Shown here one piece after another: positions 9,290-54,391 of a DNA stretch of 64,000 nt. Within the stretch, counting starts at the first letter, position 1. Every line of letters starts with the position of its first letter. The translations under genes were made by a program, and so were the position numbers. Source of the stretch: a sulfur-oxidizing endosymbiont of Gigantopelta aegis (GTDB lineage Bacteria; Pseudomonadota; Gammaproteobacteria; GRL18). The notes beneath the pieces were generated by a model. That model was not told the DNA's origin. It saw nothing but the letters and a program-made list of their open reading frames with translations, and did no database searches. The DNA lies in contig NZ_JAEHGE010000002.1 in assembly GCF_016097415.1 (NCBI RefSeq), forward strand, positions 62,001 through 126,000, in the 5' to 3' direction.

Positions 9290-10731
9290 CGGACACACCT
9301 TAAAATAACTAAAAGATGTGTGACCTAAAATGAATGATCAAACAGCCAAATAAAAGCTATGAATCAGATTTAAAGATCAGCTGTCAAATTAGCTAATGAA
9401 AAAGAATTGGCAAAAGTCAGATTCCAGGAGCGTGATTTATTAAAACTCTACATACCTGGATCACAGCGTGAAGACTTTAGCCAATAGAAGTGATGAACAC
9501 ATTTATGATGAAGTAAAACGTCTGAAAAAGAATTGGCAAAAGTGATTCAGGAGCGTGATTTATTAAAAAGGCCACAGCGTACTTTGCAAGGGAAACTTTG
9601 TGAAGTACGCATGGATAACTGATCAGGCTAAAGATTACCCGGTAACGATTCTGTGCCGTTTTATGGATGTTTCCCGTAGTTGCTATTATGATTGGGTTAG
9701 CTCTCCTAAAACGGATAGAGAGAAAGAAAATGAAGCGCTTACTGAGCAGCTAAAAAACTGTTTGAAGACAGTCGCAAGACTTATGGAACCCGTCGTCTTA
9801 AAAGAAAACTGGCTGAAAAAGGCGTTCATATAAGCCGCCGGAGAATTGGTCGATTAATGAAAAAAGCCGGTTTGTTTTGTAAAACGAAGAGACGCTTTAA
9901 AGCGACGACTAATTCCAAGCATAATAAGCGTATATCTCCAAATTTACTGGAAAGAGAGTTTACTGTCTCTCAACCTGATCGCTACTATGTGGGTGATATT
10001 ACCTATATTGCCACCAAGGAAGGCTGGTTATATTTAGCGGTTGTCATTGACTTATTCTCTAGGCAAATTGTTGGCTGGTCGATGGATGAGCGAATGAAAG
10101 CCAAGCTAGTCAATGATGCTTTACTGATGGCCATATGGAAGCGTAAACCAATGGATGGATTGCTTTGGCATACTGACCGAGGTAGCCAATATGCCTCTGA
10201 TAGTCATAGAAAAATATTGTCGGATCATAACATAATTCAGTCTATGAGCCGCAAAGGAAATTGCTGGGACAATGCTGTATCAGAGAGCTTCTTTCATAGT
10301 TTGAAAACTGAATTGACGCACCATTGTCGATTCAAAACCAGAGTAGAAGCAAAGCAGGCAATATTTGAATATATTGAGGTATTTTTTATAATCGGGAGCG
10401 ACTTCATTCGGCTAATGATTATTTGTCACCAGTCGATTATGAAATACAGCAGGAAATAGCTTAAATCGATTGAGAAGAGGGTAAAAGGCGACAAAATGCC
10501 GCCCATTACCGTTGACGGCCATCGGCTGAATGTGCCGTGAAGATATTGAACAGGTATTTTGTGAAAATACCTTGGGTGAATGGAACGGCTCTATCGTTCC
10601 AGAGGGCAAAGCCCTTTCTCTTCATCTGTTTAAAGTTAACATGAGAAACTAAAATGATAGGAAATACAAAATGACAAAAATCACTTGAAACAGCCAAAAA
10701 AATATTTAGAAAACTGTCCGATGACACATCA
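9290..10731 (+). mobile_element. IS3-family type A, copy 1 (degenerate)
   Basis: The left terminal repeat is truncated to TAACCGGACACAC. The orfA region is scrambled: a segment that belongs near its end occurs twice (about 9398-9446 and 9525-9568) and replaces normal orfA sequence. orfB is present in two frames (9600-9833 and 9857-10459), because an A-run near 9753 has 6 instead of 7 bases; a further run of extra T at 10381 changes the C-terminus. The right end keeps GACACATCA but lacks about 8 bases before it. It is inserted in the transposase-like gene together with a deletion of that gene. Confidence 0.85.
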
Positions 10732-11022: not shown

Positions 11023-12122
11023 TGATGTGTCAACACTCCTGTTACAATATCTTCACGGCACAGGCTGAGGAGCCGATGGCCGTCAACGGTAATGGGCGGC
11101 ATTTATGTCGCCTTTTACCCCTCTTCAATCAATCGATTTAAGCTATTTCCTGCTGTATTTCATAATCGACTGGTGACAAATAATCATTAGCCGAATGAAG
11201 TCGCTCCCGATTATAAAATACCTCAATATATTCAAATATTGCCTGCTTTGCTTCTACTCTGGTTTTGAATCGACAATGGTGCGTCAATTCAGTTTTCAAA
11301 CTATGAAAGAAGCTCTCTGATACAGCATTGTCCCAGCAATTTCCTTTGCGGCTCATAGACTGAATTATGTTATGATCCGACAATATTTTTCTATGACTAT
11401 CAGAGGCATATTGGCTACCTCGGTCAGTATGCCAAAGCAATCCATCCATTGGTTTACGCTTCCATATGGCCATCAGTAAAGCATCATTGACTAGCTTGGC
11501 TTTCATTCGCTCATCCATCGACCAGCCAACAATTTGCCTAGAGAATAAGTCAATGACAACCGCTAAATATAACCAGCCTTCCTTGGTGGCAATATAGGTA
11601 ATATCACCCACATAGTAGCGATCAGGTTGAGAGACAGTAAACTCTCTTTCCAGTAAATTTGGAGATATACGCTTATTATGCTTGGAATTAGTCGTCGCTT
11701 TAAAGCGTCTCTTCGTTTTACAAAACAAACCGGCTTTTTTCATTAATCGACCAATTCTCCGGCGGCTTATATGAACGCCTTTTTTCAGCCAGTTTTCTTT
11801 TTAAGACGACGGGTTCCATAAGTCTTGCGACTGTCTTCAAACAGTTTTTTAGCTGCTCAGTAAGCGCTTCATTTTCTTTCTCTCTATCCGTTTTAGGAGA
11901 GCTAACCCAATCATAATAGCAACTACGGAAACATCCATAAAACGGCACAGAATCGTTACCGGGTAATCTTTAGCCTGATCAGTTATCCATGCGTACTTCA
12001 CAAAGTTTCCCTTGCAAAGTACGCTGTGGCCTTTTTAATAAATCACGCTCCTGAATCACTTTTTATTCGGTTTTTTTGTTTGATCATTCATTTTAGGTCA
12101 ACTTTTTATCTTTTAATTTTAA
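11023..12122 (-). mobile_element. IS3-family type A, copy 2 (truncated)
   Basis: This is oriented opposite to copy 1. The right terminal repeat TGATGTGTCAACAC is present at 11023, but about 190 bp of the usual 3' tail is missing just inside it. orfB is recognisable at 11138-11743 (catalytic Asp in GDITYI, Asp in HTDRGSQY, Glu in DNAVSESFF), with its N-terminus in another frame at 11718-11948. Most of orfA is deleted, and the left terminal repeat is lost near 12122. Confidence 0.85.
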
Positions 12123-15412: not shown

Positions 15413-16257
15413 TCAGGCTAAAGATTACCCGGTAACGATTCTGTGCCGTTTTATGGATGTTTCCCGTAGTTGCTATTATGATTGGGTTAGCTCTCCTAAA
15501 ACGGATAGAGAGAAAGAAAATGAAGCGCTTACTGAGCAGCTAAAAAACTGTTTGAAGACAGTCGCAAGACTTATGGAACCCGTCGTCTTAAAAGAAAACT
15601 GGCTGAAAAAGGCGTTCATATAAGCCGCCGGAGAATTGGTCGATTAATGAAAAAAGCCGGTTTGTTTTGTAAAACGAAGAGACGCTTTAAAGCGACGACT
15701 AATTCCAAGCATAATAAGCGTATATCTCCAAATTTACTGGAAAGAGAGTTTACTGTCTCTCAACCTGATCGCTACTATGTGGGTGATATTACCTATATTG
15801 CCACCAAGGAAGGCTGGTTATATTTAGCGGTTGTCATTGACTTATTCTCTAGGCAAATTGTTGGCTGGTCGATGGATGAGCGAATGAAAGCCAAGCTAGT
15901 CAATGATGCTTTACTTTACTGATGGCCATATGGAAGCGTAAACCAATGGATGGATTGCTTTGGCATACTGACCGAGGTAGCCAATATGCCTCTGATAGTC
16001 ATAGAAAAATATTGTCGGATCATAACATAATTCAGTCTATGAGCCGCAAAGGAAATTGCTGGGACAATGCTGTATCAGAGAGCTTCTTTCATAGTTTGAA
16101 AACTGAATTGACGCACCATTGTCGATTCAAAACCAGAGTAGAAGCAAAGCAGGCAATATTTGAATATATTGAGGTGTTTTATAATCGGGAGCGACTTCAT
16201 TCGGCTAATGATTATTTGTCACCAGTCGATTATGAAATACAGCAGGAAATAGCTTAA
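15390..16257 (+). pseudogene. IS3-family OrfB transposase, frameshifted
   Basis: This is the DDE integrase-type transposase of copy 3. The start is a GTG overlapping orfA. Visible catalytic positions are Asp in VGDITYIA, Asp in WHTDRGSQY and Glu in [13 protein letters not shown]. The order is HTH_21-like N-terminus, rve core, short C-terminus ending DYEIQQEIA. Two frame breaks, near 15547 and 15914, make it non-functional as written. Confidence 0.85.
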
Positions 16258-16547
16258 ATCGATTGATTGAAGAGGGGTAAAAGGCGACATAAATGCCGCC
16301 CATTACCGTTGACGGCCATCGGCTCCTCAGCCTGTGCCGTGAAGATATTGTAACAGGATCATTACCGTTGTGAAAATACCTTGGGTGAATGGAACGGCTC
16401 TATCGTTCCAGAGGGCAAAGCCCTTTCTCTTCATCTGTTTAAAGTTAACATGAGAAACTAAAATGATAGGAAATACAAAATGACAAAAATCACTTGAAAC
16501 AGCCAAAAAATATTTAGAAAACTGTCCGGAAAAGTGTTGACACATCA
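16258..16547 (+). other. Non-coding 3' tail of IS3 type A with hairpins
   Basis: About 290 bp between the orfB stop and the right terminal repeat has no plausible gene on either strand. It holds short hairpins GGAACG/CGTTCC and AGGGC/GCCCT, and an 11-bp direct repeat CATTACCGTTG. The tail is shared by the other copies (33709-33997, 36394-36685, 39272-39518 and inverted at 53018-53308). This is longer than I expect for an IS3-family element. Confidence 0.6.
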
Positions 16548-32946: not shown

Positions 32947-33997
32947 TCTCCTAAAACGGATAGAGAGAAAGAAAATGAAGCGCTTACTGAGCAGCTAAAA
33001 AACTGTTTGAAGACAGTCGCAAGACTTATGGAACCCGTCGTCTTAAAAGAAAAACTGGCTGAAAAAGGCGTTCATATAAGCCGCCGGAGAATTGGTCGAT
33101 TAATGAAAAAAGCCGGTTTGTTTTGTAAAACGAAGAGACGCTTTAAAGCGACGACTAATTCCAAGCATAATAAGCGTATATCTCCAAATTTACTGGAAAG
33201 AGAGTTTACTGTCTCTCAACCTGATCGCTACTATGTGGGTGATATTACCTATATTGCCACCAAGGAAGGCTGGTTATATTTAGCGGTTGTCATTGACTTA
33301 TTCTCTAGGCAAATTGTTGGCTGGTCGATGGATGAGCGAATGAAAGCCAAGCTAGTCAATGATGCTTTACTGATGGCCATATGGAAGCGTAAACCAATGG
33401 ATGGATTGCTTTGGCATACTGACCGAGGTAGCCAATATGCCTCTGATAGTCATAGAAAAATATTGTCGGATCATAACATAATTCAGTCTATGAGCCGCAA
33501 AGGAAATTGCTGGGACAATGCTGTATCAGAGAGCTTCTTTCATAGTTTGAAAACTGAATTGACGCACCATTGTCGATTCAAAACCAGAGTAGAAGCAAAG
33601 CAGGCAATATTTGAATATATTGAGGTATTTTATAATCGGGAGCGACTTCATTCGGCTAATGATTATTTGTCACCAGTCGATTATGAAATACAGCAGGAAA
33701 TAGCTTAAATCGATTGATTGAAGAGGGGTAAAGGCGACATAAATGCCGCCCATTACCGTTGACGGCCATCGGCTCCTCAGCCTGTGCCGTGAAGATATTG
33801 TAACAGGATCATTACCGTTGTGAAAATACCTTGGGTGAATGGAACGGCTCTATCGTTCCAGAGGGCAAAGCCCTTTCTCTTCATCTGTTTAAAGTTAACA
33901 TGAGAAACTAAAATGATAGGAAATACAAAATGACAAAAATCACTTGAAACAGCCAAAAAATATTTAGAAAACTGTCCGGAAAAGTGTTGACACATCA
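32947..33997 (+). mobile_element. IS3-family type A, copy 4 (5' truncated)
   Basis: It begins inside orfB at the codons for SPKTDRE; orfA and the left terminal repeat are absent. The rest of orfB (33007-33708, 233 residues) is a single frame with the full DDE core, because a missing A near 32998 is compensated by an extra A near 33053. The intervening 15 or so residues differ from normal ([14 protein letters not shown] in place of [14 protein letters not shown]). The non-coding tail and right terminal repeat are intact to 33997. It sits within IS66 sequence. Confidence 0.9.
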
Positions 33998-35164: not shown

Positions 35165-36685
<1,521 letters not shown>

Positions 36686-43477: not shown

Positions 43478-44325
43478 CTAATATAAATACTGTTTTACTT
43501 GCTCATAGTTTTCCAATACCAGTTGCTGTGCTTCGGGAGACTGTTCGGGGAGGCTGGGTGTCATGCGCAAATATTGCAAATAATAGTTGGCCAGTGCTGC
43601 CCGAGTCGTGATTTCTAAGGTTTGCTTCTTCATATTATAATCACGAGCAATAATACTTTGTTGAAATTCAGACAAACGTGGATCGGGAATAATGTTTAAG
43701 ATAATGTGTGTGTTCCATGCGATATCACCCTCAACCCCATGCTCCGAAGGCAATACTACTTCGGGCACCGAACTAATACGAGACAAAACAAAATCACGAT
43801 AATCATTGTTTTTTCACAATGCGCACGTACATGCCAGCGATAACCCGAATACACCAATGAATGAGGAGTGATAACACGCCCTTCATCTGTGCCAGAGGTA
43901 AAAGATGAATACTGAATATCAAGTCGGTCAATCTGATAGATTGCAGCAATAATCGGGCGAATATTTTCAGGTACAATATGTCTTGCAGGTGAAAAAATGA
44001 CTTCTGTATTAGCTGCCTCCATTTTCAAATAGCTGAGATGAGCGCTTAAATCATTGTTACTATTAAGCAATTGCATATATTCATCAAAAGAGCCCGGGCT
44101 TAAAATTGTCAGTGGGCTTAAAACCTTTGAGGTGTTTGTCATAAACCAAATTCTCATCTGATATTTCAGTTCTATAACGTTCAATAATTTTCGAGCCCTG
44201 TTGACGTCAATCGCAAACGCATTGACTAAATGAGTCGCTGTTAAACGACCTTCCCATAATGCCATGATTTCTATCAATTGATATTTGAGTAACAAACTTA
44301 AACTATAGGTTTCTTGATTACCCAC
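43478..44325 (-). pseudogene. WYL-domain transcriptional regulator (BrxR/CapW-like), one frameshift
   Basis: The N-terminal part (43756-44325) has a winged-helix region (YQLIEIMALWEGRLTATHLV) and the first half of a WYL domain (LDIQYSSFTSGTDEG, ITPHSLVYSGYRWHVRAHCE). After a 6-A run near 43810 the second frame (43478-43786) continues SRISSVPEVVLPSEHG and the WCX-type C-terminus to LENYEQVKQYLY. Adding one A gives a single protein of about 280 residues. This length and layout match BrxR/CapW regulators of defence loci. No defence operon lies next to it. An 11-bp tandem array lies just upstream. Confidence 0.75.
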
Positions 44326-44346
44326 AAAGCTCCGCCATATTTCGAT

Positions 44347-44424
44347 AATTATACTATAATTATACTATAATTATACTATAATTATACTATAATTATACTA
44401 TAATTATACTATAATTATACTATA
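44347..44424. repeat. 11-bp tandem repeat array (about 7 units)
   Basis: The unit AATTATACTAT recurs with C at 44354, 44365, 44376, 44387, 44398, 44409 and 44420, so the period is exactly 11 bp. Each unit contains palindromic AT-rich half-sites. It lies 22 bp upstream of the WYL regulator start and upstream of the IS1595-like remnant. The phasing would put identical sites on about one face of the helix. It is not a CRISPR: there are no spacers. Confidence 0.85.
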
Positions 44425-44457
44425 CTATTAAAGTATAGATTATGTGTGGAGTAGAAT

Positions 44458-45279
44458 GATGTCAAAAAATAAAATTCAGTTTCAAGAAGGTTATAGTTTA
44501 TTTGAGCTTTTTTAATGATTATGGCACTGACAAACAGTGCCGACAAATATATTTAAATGGAAATTTCCTGATGGATTTGTTTGCCCAGAGTGTGGCAATA
44601 AGACTTATTGCACTCTAGAACATCGCCATCTTTATCAGTGCCACCATTGTCATCATCAGACATCAGCAACCTGTGGGACAATATTTGATAGTACCAAACT
44701 GCCTTTATCTAAGTGGTTTTAGCGATTCATCTTATGACTCAATTGAAGACAGCGGTTTCAGCATTAGAATTAAAGAGACAGCTTAAGGTAAGCTACAATA
44801 CAGCCTGGAGTATGAAACAAAAGATCATGCAGGTTATGAAAGAACGTGATGACAGTAAACCTTTATCAGGCATCATTCAAATTGATGATGCCTACTGGGG
44901 TGGTGAGCACAGAGGCGGCTCCAGAGGTCGTGGTTCAGAAAATAAAACACCGTTCGTTGCAGCCGTTTCTACTAATGAAGATGGACACCCGATTGCAATG
45001 AATTTAAATGTGCTTAAAGGGTTTAAATCCAGTGAAATAAAACGATGGGCACAAACTCATTTAACACCTGGAAGTACTGTTTACTCAGATGGGTTAAATT
45101 GTTTTCCTGCAGTTAAAGAAGCTGACTGTAAGCATGTTCCAATCGTCACGGGTGGTGGTGCGGCAAGTGTTGATAAAATTGAGTTTATCTGGGTTAACAC
45201 TATGATAGGTAATATTAAAAACTCTATGAAGGGAAGCTATCATTCCATTAATCAAGAAAGTCTATGCTTATATGAGTAG
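44458..45279 (+). pseudogene. IS1595-family (ISXO2-like) transposase, frameshifted and truncated
   Basis: This reads MMSKNKIQFQEGYSLFELF, and after a shift QAIFKWKFPDGFVCPECGNK (zinc ribbon with CPEC and CHHCHHQ), TKLPLSKWF, and after a second shift LAIHLMTQLKTAVSALELKR, IIQIDDAYWGGEHRGGSRGR and VYSDGLNCFPAVKEADCKH. These are the ISXO2-like DDE domain motifs. It ends abnormally after SYHSINQ, where relatives continue into a Tyr/Phe-rich C-terminus. No terminal repeat was identified. It separates the WYL gene from trpE. Confidence 0.8.
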
Positions 45280-52484: not shown

Positions 52485-53017
52485 CTAATACCACGAAGGC
52501 TTGTTTTCAGGTACTTCTAATAAGGCTTTGATATTCGCTGCAATAATATGATAGCCAATATTACCATAAAGTCGCTGTCTGCCCTCATTAAAAACAAAAG
52601 AGGGGCTGCCCTCAATTAATTTTTGTTTATCATTAGTGGTGCAGGATGATAAAGCGGCCATTCCTTCACCATTGTTTAGCAGTTTTTCAATAGGGCTTCT
52701 AGGGATATTAAGTTGTTCTGCAATACGCATGAGTTGAGTATTGTTGGAAATATCCAGAGCATCGCGAAAATAAGCGAGTCGAACTAGCCAATCGGCTTGT
52801 CCCATCAGGCTTGTTTGTGGATCTGAAGAGGCAATTTCGCCGCATTGCTCCAATAGCTGGATGGATTTTAAAAATAAATGACATGAAGCAGAAGAATAAG
52901 GCAGGTTTTTTAGGCCAATTTCAGGGTGTACTTCAATATGCGGGAATTTTTTTTGTAACTGCAGCATGGCTGTATTGTAGCCTTGCAAGTCACCTTTGTT
53001 AGCCCAGTTTGTTTCTA
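52485..53017 (-). pseudogene. DsbA-family oxidoreductase-like protein, C-terminal part
   Basis: This continues the N-terminal fragment at 54392-54545 after IS3 copy 7 and one CTA are removed: HQTLETNWANKGDLQGYNTA. It carries HIEVHPEIGLKNLPYSSASC, FLKSIQLLEQ, RLAYFRDALDISN and the C-terminal SFVFNEGRQRLYGNIGYHII, like FrnE/HCCA-isomerase-type DsbA relatives. The two fragments add to exactly 228 codons including the stop, with no other frameshift. The gene was thus intact until the insertion. Confidence 0.8.
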
Positions 53018-54391
53018 TGATGTGTCAACACTTTTCCGGACAGTTTTCTAAATATTTTTTTGGCTGTTTCAAGTGATTTTTGTCATTTTGTATTTCCTAT
53101 CATTTTAGTTTCTCATGTTAACTTTAAACAGATGAAGAGAAAGGGCTTTGCCCTCTGGAACGATAGAGCCGTTCCATTCACCCAAGGTATTTTCACAACG
53201 GTAATGATCCTGTTACAATATCTTCACGGCACAGGCTGAGGAGCCGATGGCCGTCAACGGTAATGGGCGGCATTTATGTCGCCTTTTACCCCTCTTCAAT
53301 CAATCGATTTAAGCTATTTCCTGCTGTATTTCATAATCGACTGGTGACAAATAATCATTAGCCGAATGAAGTCGCTCCCGATTATAAAATACCTCAATAT
53401 ATTCAAATATTGCCTGCTTTGCTTCTACTCTGGTTTTGAATCGACAATGGTGCGTCAATTCAGTTTTCAAACTATGAAAGAAGCTCTCTGATACAGCATT
53501 GTCCCAGCAATTTCCTTTGCGGCTCATAGACTGAATTATGTTATGATCCGACAATATTTTTCTATGACTATCAGAGGCATATTGGCTACCTCGGTCAGTA
53601 TGCCAAAGCAATCCATCCATTGGTTTACGCTTCCATATGGCCATCAGTAAAGCATCATTGACTAGCTTGGCTTTCATTCGCTCATCCATCGACCAGCCAA
53701 CAATTTGCCTAGAGAATAAGTCAATGACAACCGCTAAATATAACCAGCCTTCCTTGGTGGCAATATAGGTAATATCACCCACATAGTAGCGATCAGGTTG
53801 AGAGACAGTAAACTCTCTTTCCAGTAAATTTGGAGATATACGCTTATTATGCTTGGAATTAGTCGTCGCTTTAAAGCGTCTCTTCGTTTTACAAAACAAA
53901 CCGGCTTTTTTCATTAATCGACCAATTCTCCGGCGGCTTATATGAACGCCTTTTTCAGCCAGTTTTCTTTTTAAGACGACGGGTTCCATAAGTCTTGCGA
54001 CTGTCTTCAAACAGTTTTTTAGCTGCTCAGTAAGCGCTTCATTTTCTTTCTCTCTATCCGTTTTAGGAGAGCTAACCCAATCATAATAGCAACTACGGGA
54101 AACATCCATAAAACGGCACAGAATCGTTACCGGGTAATCTTTAGCCTGATCAGTTATCACCGGTTTGGAATATTTACTGATCCAGGTATGTAGAGTATTT
54201 ACATTAACACCTAGCTCCCTGGCAGTCTGAGAAACGGGTTGATCCGTCTCATTAGCTAATTTGACAGCTGATTCTTTAAATTCTGATGTATAGCTTTTAT
54301 TCGGTTTTTTTGTTTGATCATTCATTTTAGGTCACACTTTTTATCTTTTAGTTGTTTTAAGTTGTGTGTCCGGTTAAGTATAGCCACATTA
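53018..54391 (-). mobile_element. IS3-family type A, copy 7, with fused orfA-orfB
   Basis: Both terminal repeats are complete and flanked by a 3-bp duplication CTA (53015-53017 and 54392-54394). It is 1374 bp instead of about 1525, because about 150 bp spanning the end of orfA and the start of orfB is deleted. The 3' non-coding tail is present at 53018-53308. It is inserted in a DsbA-like gene downstream of crp. Confidence 0.95.
53309..54325 (-). CDS. IS3-family OrfA-OrfB fusion protein (338 aa)
   Basis: A deletion joins KYSKPV of OrfA to [10 protein letters not shown] of OrfB in frame. The fusion keeps the OrfA helix-turn-helix ([14 protein letters not shown]) and the OrfB DDE core ([19 protein letters not shown]). 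It loses the OrfA coiled coil (DEVKRLKKELAKVIQERD) that normally mediates multimerisation. Its A-run at the orfA start is 7, in frame. A -1/+1 pair of A-run changes replaces [14 protein letters not shown] with [14 protein letters not shown]. It is the only copy here with a continuous frame across both genes. Activity is unknown. Confidence 0.85.

Follow-up and report, generated by a model that had tools for sequence, protein, structure and literature searches.

The 11-bp tandem array of the window (the whole 64,000-nucleotide stretch of DNA that was analysed) is very likely a minisatellite internal to an insertion sequence (IS), driven by slippage; its repeat unit contains what is probably the transposase −10 box. 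It travels as part of an IS1595-family element, not of the adjacent WYL gene, which is simply a target into which the IS inserted.

The array as part of an insertion sequence

The array and its surroundings comprise the following features, where C1 denotes another contig of the same genome and C2 the contig of the window:

43478..44312, minus strand: WYL-domain regulator gene, frameshifted and with its 5' end cut by the IS; duplicate of C1:2315554-2316401
44305..44312, no strand: ATAGGTTT, 8-bp target duplication (left half); the C1 copy is flanked by it on either side
44313..44338, plus strand: left terminal inverted repeat CTTGATTACCCACAAAGCTCCGCCAT of the IS1595-family element, with 57 exact copies in the genome
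44347..44423, plus strand: 11-bp array of seven units AATTATACTAT, preceded by the left inverted repeat and followed by the transposase gene
44424..44455, plus strand: leader tail as read from the sequence, with an altered, degenerate last unit and a GGAG resembling a ribosome-binding site; differs from the other copies
44456..45255, plus strand: broken transposase gene (frame split, C-terminal part missing); Pfam domains assigned on the 316-aa form

TRF reported a period of 11, 7.3 copies and 100% matches at 44345-44424; within this stretch, AATTATACTAT occurs seven times in a row without a mismatch, at 44347-44423. A search for the two-unit pattern with at most three mismatches returned 11 matches in the window (six exact and five on the opposite strand with two mismatches) and none in 100 dinucleotide shuffles of it. 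These results bear out the sequence-only reading in its description of seven exactly spaced units, and the array also lies, as that reading claimed, a short way upstream of the WYL reading frame on the minus strand. An IS1595 remnant had been placed after the array; the remnant is indeed present, but the upstream region that holds the array is the left end of that same IS.

The left tip of the IS in the window is at 44313. In other copies, the left and right terminal inverted repeats are identical in 25 of 26 tip bases, and full-length copies measure approximately 1.04-1.1 kb, with matching right ends. The 316-aa transposase contains the domains PF12762 (DDE_Tnp_IS1595, E 2.4e-35) and PF12760 (Zn_ribbon_IS1595, E 1.1e-13) and is encoded in full, with 100% identity and no stops, at 17 loci. 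An exact 8-bp target duplication was found for 43 of the 55 IS copies with a readable leader; a duplication of the same length is reported for the IS1595-family element ISApl4 (PMC12561309). In its zinc ribbon and DDE domain, inverted repeats, target duplication and length the element resembles the IS1595 family. Beside the window copy neither a right inverted repeat nor the right half of the target duplication was found; this copy is truncated and its frame is broken.

The genome (4.91 Mb, 11 contigs) contains 120 exact matches to the two-unit pattern. As many as 117 fall in leaders of the IS, including one with a damaged tip, which rules out an array independent of the element. The 24 arrays aligned first share the start of the transposase gene on one side and, on the other, the left flank CTTGATTACCCACAAAGCTCCGCCATATTTCGAT, which in four cases is succeeded by a variant unit; their outer flanks are unlike one another, except those of the window and locus L020, which agree. 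In a class-wide sample, the two-unit pattern with at most one mismatch occurred in one of 369 genomes, that of the window itself, and a wide distribution of the array in the class was thus ruled out. Viral contigs gave no exact match, in a collection that may lack entries close to this genome.

Unit number and the probable −10 box

Units were counted in 55 readable leaders, i.e. at the 57 exact occurrences of the left tip less the two in a palindrome at C1:3270442-3270535 (L042). The latter is a 94-bp piece that consists of two left ends of the IS placed back to back and has no target duplication. A further array with a damaged tip (L034) also lies outside the 55. The array occupies the same position of the IS in all 55 leaders and comprises one to eight units, with 4, 19, 13, 7, 5, 3, 3 and 1 copies having 1, 2, 3, 4, 5, 6, 7 and 8 units, respectively; variant units, present in 11 of the leaders, were counted as units. 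Leader lengths follow exact 11-bp steps in 53 of the 55, the exceptions being C1:3818630 and the window copy. One substitution haplotype (nine variable substitution columns, indels ignored) is common to 36 of the 42 near-full-length copies (>980 bp), yet these have two to seven units, and hence unit number changes faster than substitutions accumulate. Three fragments with an identical insertion point have seven, seven and five units, pointing to change later than the insertion itself; in two further same-site pairs the counts are equal (2/2 and 1/1). The single array of eight units lies in a 593-bp copy at C1:2644083 (L024) with an internal deletion and an exact 8-bp target duplication, possibly a non-autonomous form of the IS.

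Related elements were collected at 31 loci, and leaders were compared after omission of six that lack the 5' part (L112, L116, L119, L123, L124 and L126). Of these 25 leaders, 19 have a −10-like hexamer, defined as at least five of six matches to TATAAT, at a distance of 40-45 bp from the tip. The 25 are not independent, many being from related Halomonas-type elements, and in two of them (L101 and L120) the tip is poorly placed (6 of 10 bases). Among the 24 distinct leaders the count is 18, compared with a shuffle expectation of 1.27 on average and a maximum of 6 in 2000, and the offsets 26-39 and 46-63 together hold four such hexamers. A one-unit leader of the present IS shows TATAAT at this offset as well, 33 bp upstream of the ATG. 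Since the hexamer is conserved at the position of the unit, the 11-bp unit probably supplies the −10 box of the transposase gene. Candidates for a −35 box are weak: CCGCCA, at a spacing of 17 bp, yields 9 of 12 matches, and leaders of two or more units contain a further promoter match that is slightly better, with TCGATA at 18 bp (10 of 12). A promoter scan of the window region returned four sites, where shuffles gave 2.8 on average (sd 1.6); one of the four is on the minus strand and reads away from the array. For a transcript beginning from the first −10 box, the predicted folding energy changes from −1.4 kcal/mol with one and two units to −22.6 kcal/mol with seven, values calculated without a shuffle control. 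An influence of the array on the transposase level is plausible.

In the same genus, three relatives of the IS (transposases 93-97% identical) have one unit each, for example AATTGTACTAT then AATTAAAGTAT, and a further copy in one of these genomes likewise has one. A second, degenerate unit was found in all three relatives, and an imperfect repeat therefore probably preceded the expansion of the array. Of the 25 related leaders, 24 are without a tandem repeat of 6-16 bp; in the remaining one, L101, an unrelated 11-bp unit is present in 1.9 copies. What sets the present element apart from these IS1595 relatives is the variable 11-bp array in its leader. Many of the plasmid-borne relatives near 59% identity are, among the matches listed, annotated as ISKpn3-like.

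As the mechanism of unit change we infer replication slippage. The older imperfect repeat of the leader would have seeded it, and whole 11-bp units would then be gained or lost. With each added unit, the distance from the first −10 box to the tip of the IS and that from the last −10 box to the start codon would remain constant, so that a change of unit number would lengthen the leader without breaking the basic promoter.

Possible consequences for the element and comparable systems

Two refinements of this slippage reading differ in what the variation does. That it is purely neutral, i.e. without consequence for the IS, appears somewhat probable to us: near-identical copies vary freely in steps of 11 bp, and the proportion of open transposase frames shows no trend with unit number (0/1, 9/17, 4/11, 3/5, 2/4, 1/2 and 1/2 for one to seven units), but the unit coincides with the conserved −10-like position, where some effect on transcription would be expected. 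The other refinement, which we hold to be possible although rather improbable, is selected tuning, in which the level of transposase expression would depend on unit number, by way of how many −10 boxes there are, how long the leader is or a hairpin in the leader, and the IS lineage would gain from a spread of activities. At least two units in 51 of the 55 leaders, two being the commonest number (19 of 55), the better promoter match available from two units on and the stronger predicted fold at seven units are consistent with tuning, whereas the missing trend in open frames speaks against it and a founder effect accounts for the two-unit mode equally well. A further step, an IS with a self-adjusting promoter in which slippage of the −10 segment diversifies the activity of the copies and tunes transposition in the manner of a contingency locus, is in our view unlikely.

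An accessory array of helically phased transposase-binding sites at the left end would agree with the 11-bp period, which is near one helical turn, with the position adjoining the left inverted repeat and with right ends that, where read, are without an array. It is nevertheless quite improbable, as nearly all related leaders do without a tandem repeat and two copies with a single unit nonetheless show exact target duplications. Hardly any weight falls on assembly artefacts, that is, wrong unit numbers from collapsed or mis-polished repeats. Many IS copies contain small indels, and 25 gapped bases in 2,939 separate the window from its C1 duplicate, so that some of the unit counts could be assembly errors; however, the arrays are joined to different flanks, nearly all leader lengths fall in exact 11-bp steps and two same-site pairs agree.

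The closest precedent found is BrickBuilt of Porphyromonas gingivalis, a MITE that is spread through the genome and contains a minisatellite of 23-nt units with promoter activity (PMC4596501). Both systems place a tandem minisatellite inside a mobile element with genome-wide spread, and they differ in that BrickBuilt is a MITE with 23-nt units, whereas the element described here has its own transposase gene and a unit that is a probable −10 segment. A non-autonomous, BrickBuilt-type MITE was ruled out by the 17 loci with a complete transposase. Among the papers listed on IS tandem repeats, minisatellites and the IS1595 family, none mentions an IS with a variable promoter array in its title or abstract opening.

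In phase-variable promoters, slipped-strand mispairing changes the number of repeats and thereby the spacing between the −35 and −10 boxes of host genes. The likeness lies in a repeat number that changes by slippage in a promoter region, with slippage being the presumed cause here; the difference is that in the IS whole −10 units would be added and the outer distances preserved.

One genome holds dozens of IS copies, mostly identical in substitutions, that form a natural series of leader variants with one to eight copies of the probable −10 segment. Should transposase output depend on unit number, this would be a simple route by which an IS diversifies its activity, and even a neutral array could be useful as a fast marker of the order in which the IS copies inserted.

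The WYL gene and the type I-C CRISPR-Cas locus

The WYL protein matches PF13280 (E 3.8e-13) and the CRISPR-associated WYL models of PADLOC. In the C1 copy of the locus, the same insertion, an IS with seven units, lies near the start of the WYL frame with the target duplication ATAGGTTT on both sides, and joining the flanks without the IS yields an open WYL frame of 294 codons. Next on C1 are genes for a HIRAN-domain protein, a Cas3 helicase, Cas5c, Cas8c, Cas7c, a RhuM-family protein, Cas4 and Cas1c; the HD part of Cas3 scored below the cut-off in the piece searched. In the fuller C1 locus, the WYL gene adjoins a type I-C CRISPR-Cas operon, beyond which lie arrays of a CRISPR-like repeat. With a WYL domain and neighbouring cas genes on C1, both traits of WYL regulators linked to CRISPR-Cas were found, and the earlier reading was partly right about this gene.

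Between 42338 and 45255 the window is 98.9% identical to the C1 locus, and similarity continues in pieces to 38643. The window contains a duplicated, decayed fragment of the WYL-cas locus with a truncated IS. A stretch with trpE that follows the IS was found only on C2, and C2 is therefore not supported as a mere second copy of C1.

The earlier proposal that the array is an operator or autoregulatory element of the WYL gene, or the orphaned operator of a lost defence locus, has in its favour the proximity of the two and the match of the WYL protein to CRISPR-associated WYL models. It has next to no probability left: the array is carried by the IS and recurs at dozens of other sites with different flanks, varies freely from one to eight units like a slippage product, is absent from nine WYL orthologues of related genomes (58-64% identity) and belongs on C1 to an IS inserted within the WYL frame together with an 8-bp duplication. 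In the orthologue loci fetched, the array unit is absent throughout, and the 332-400 bp upstream of the genes are free of tandem repeats of 8-16 bp; a BrxR/CapW-type operator native to the WYL promoter was rejected on the same grounds. What holds of the orphan proposal is that the WYL gene in the window is cut off from a defence locus, but the array is not its operator. A repeat beside a regulator gene may, as a caution, be part of the end of an IS.

Upstream of four of the nine orthologues (L147, L149, L151 and L152) a repeat of 6-7 bp occurs in two copies; in two of these four its sequence is TACATGTACATGT, and the repeats might be the native operator of the WYL regulators there. Genes for Cas1f, Cas1f and Cas3'' lie beside three of the nine.

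Arrays of the CRISPR-like repeat GTCGCGCCTTCACGGGCGCGTGGATTGAAAC occupy C1:2336195-2340658 (L134 1195-5658), with copies of a gene of another mobile element, integrase-like as judged by eye, between and beside them. A third, decayed WYL-cas copy lies at C1:3814000-3824000 (L130) and shares stretches with L131 at 84-99.6% identity, with one short stretch at 72%. Finally, approximately 0.9 kb at the start of L131 has six further matches in the window at 97-100% identity (9834-10720, 11037-11766, 15624-16547, 33080-33997, 35764-36685 and 53015-53937), and is perhaps another multicopy mobile element.
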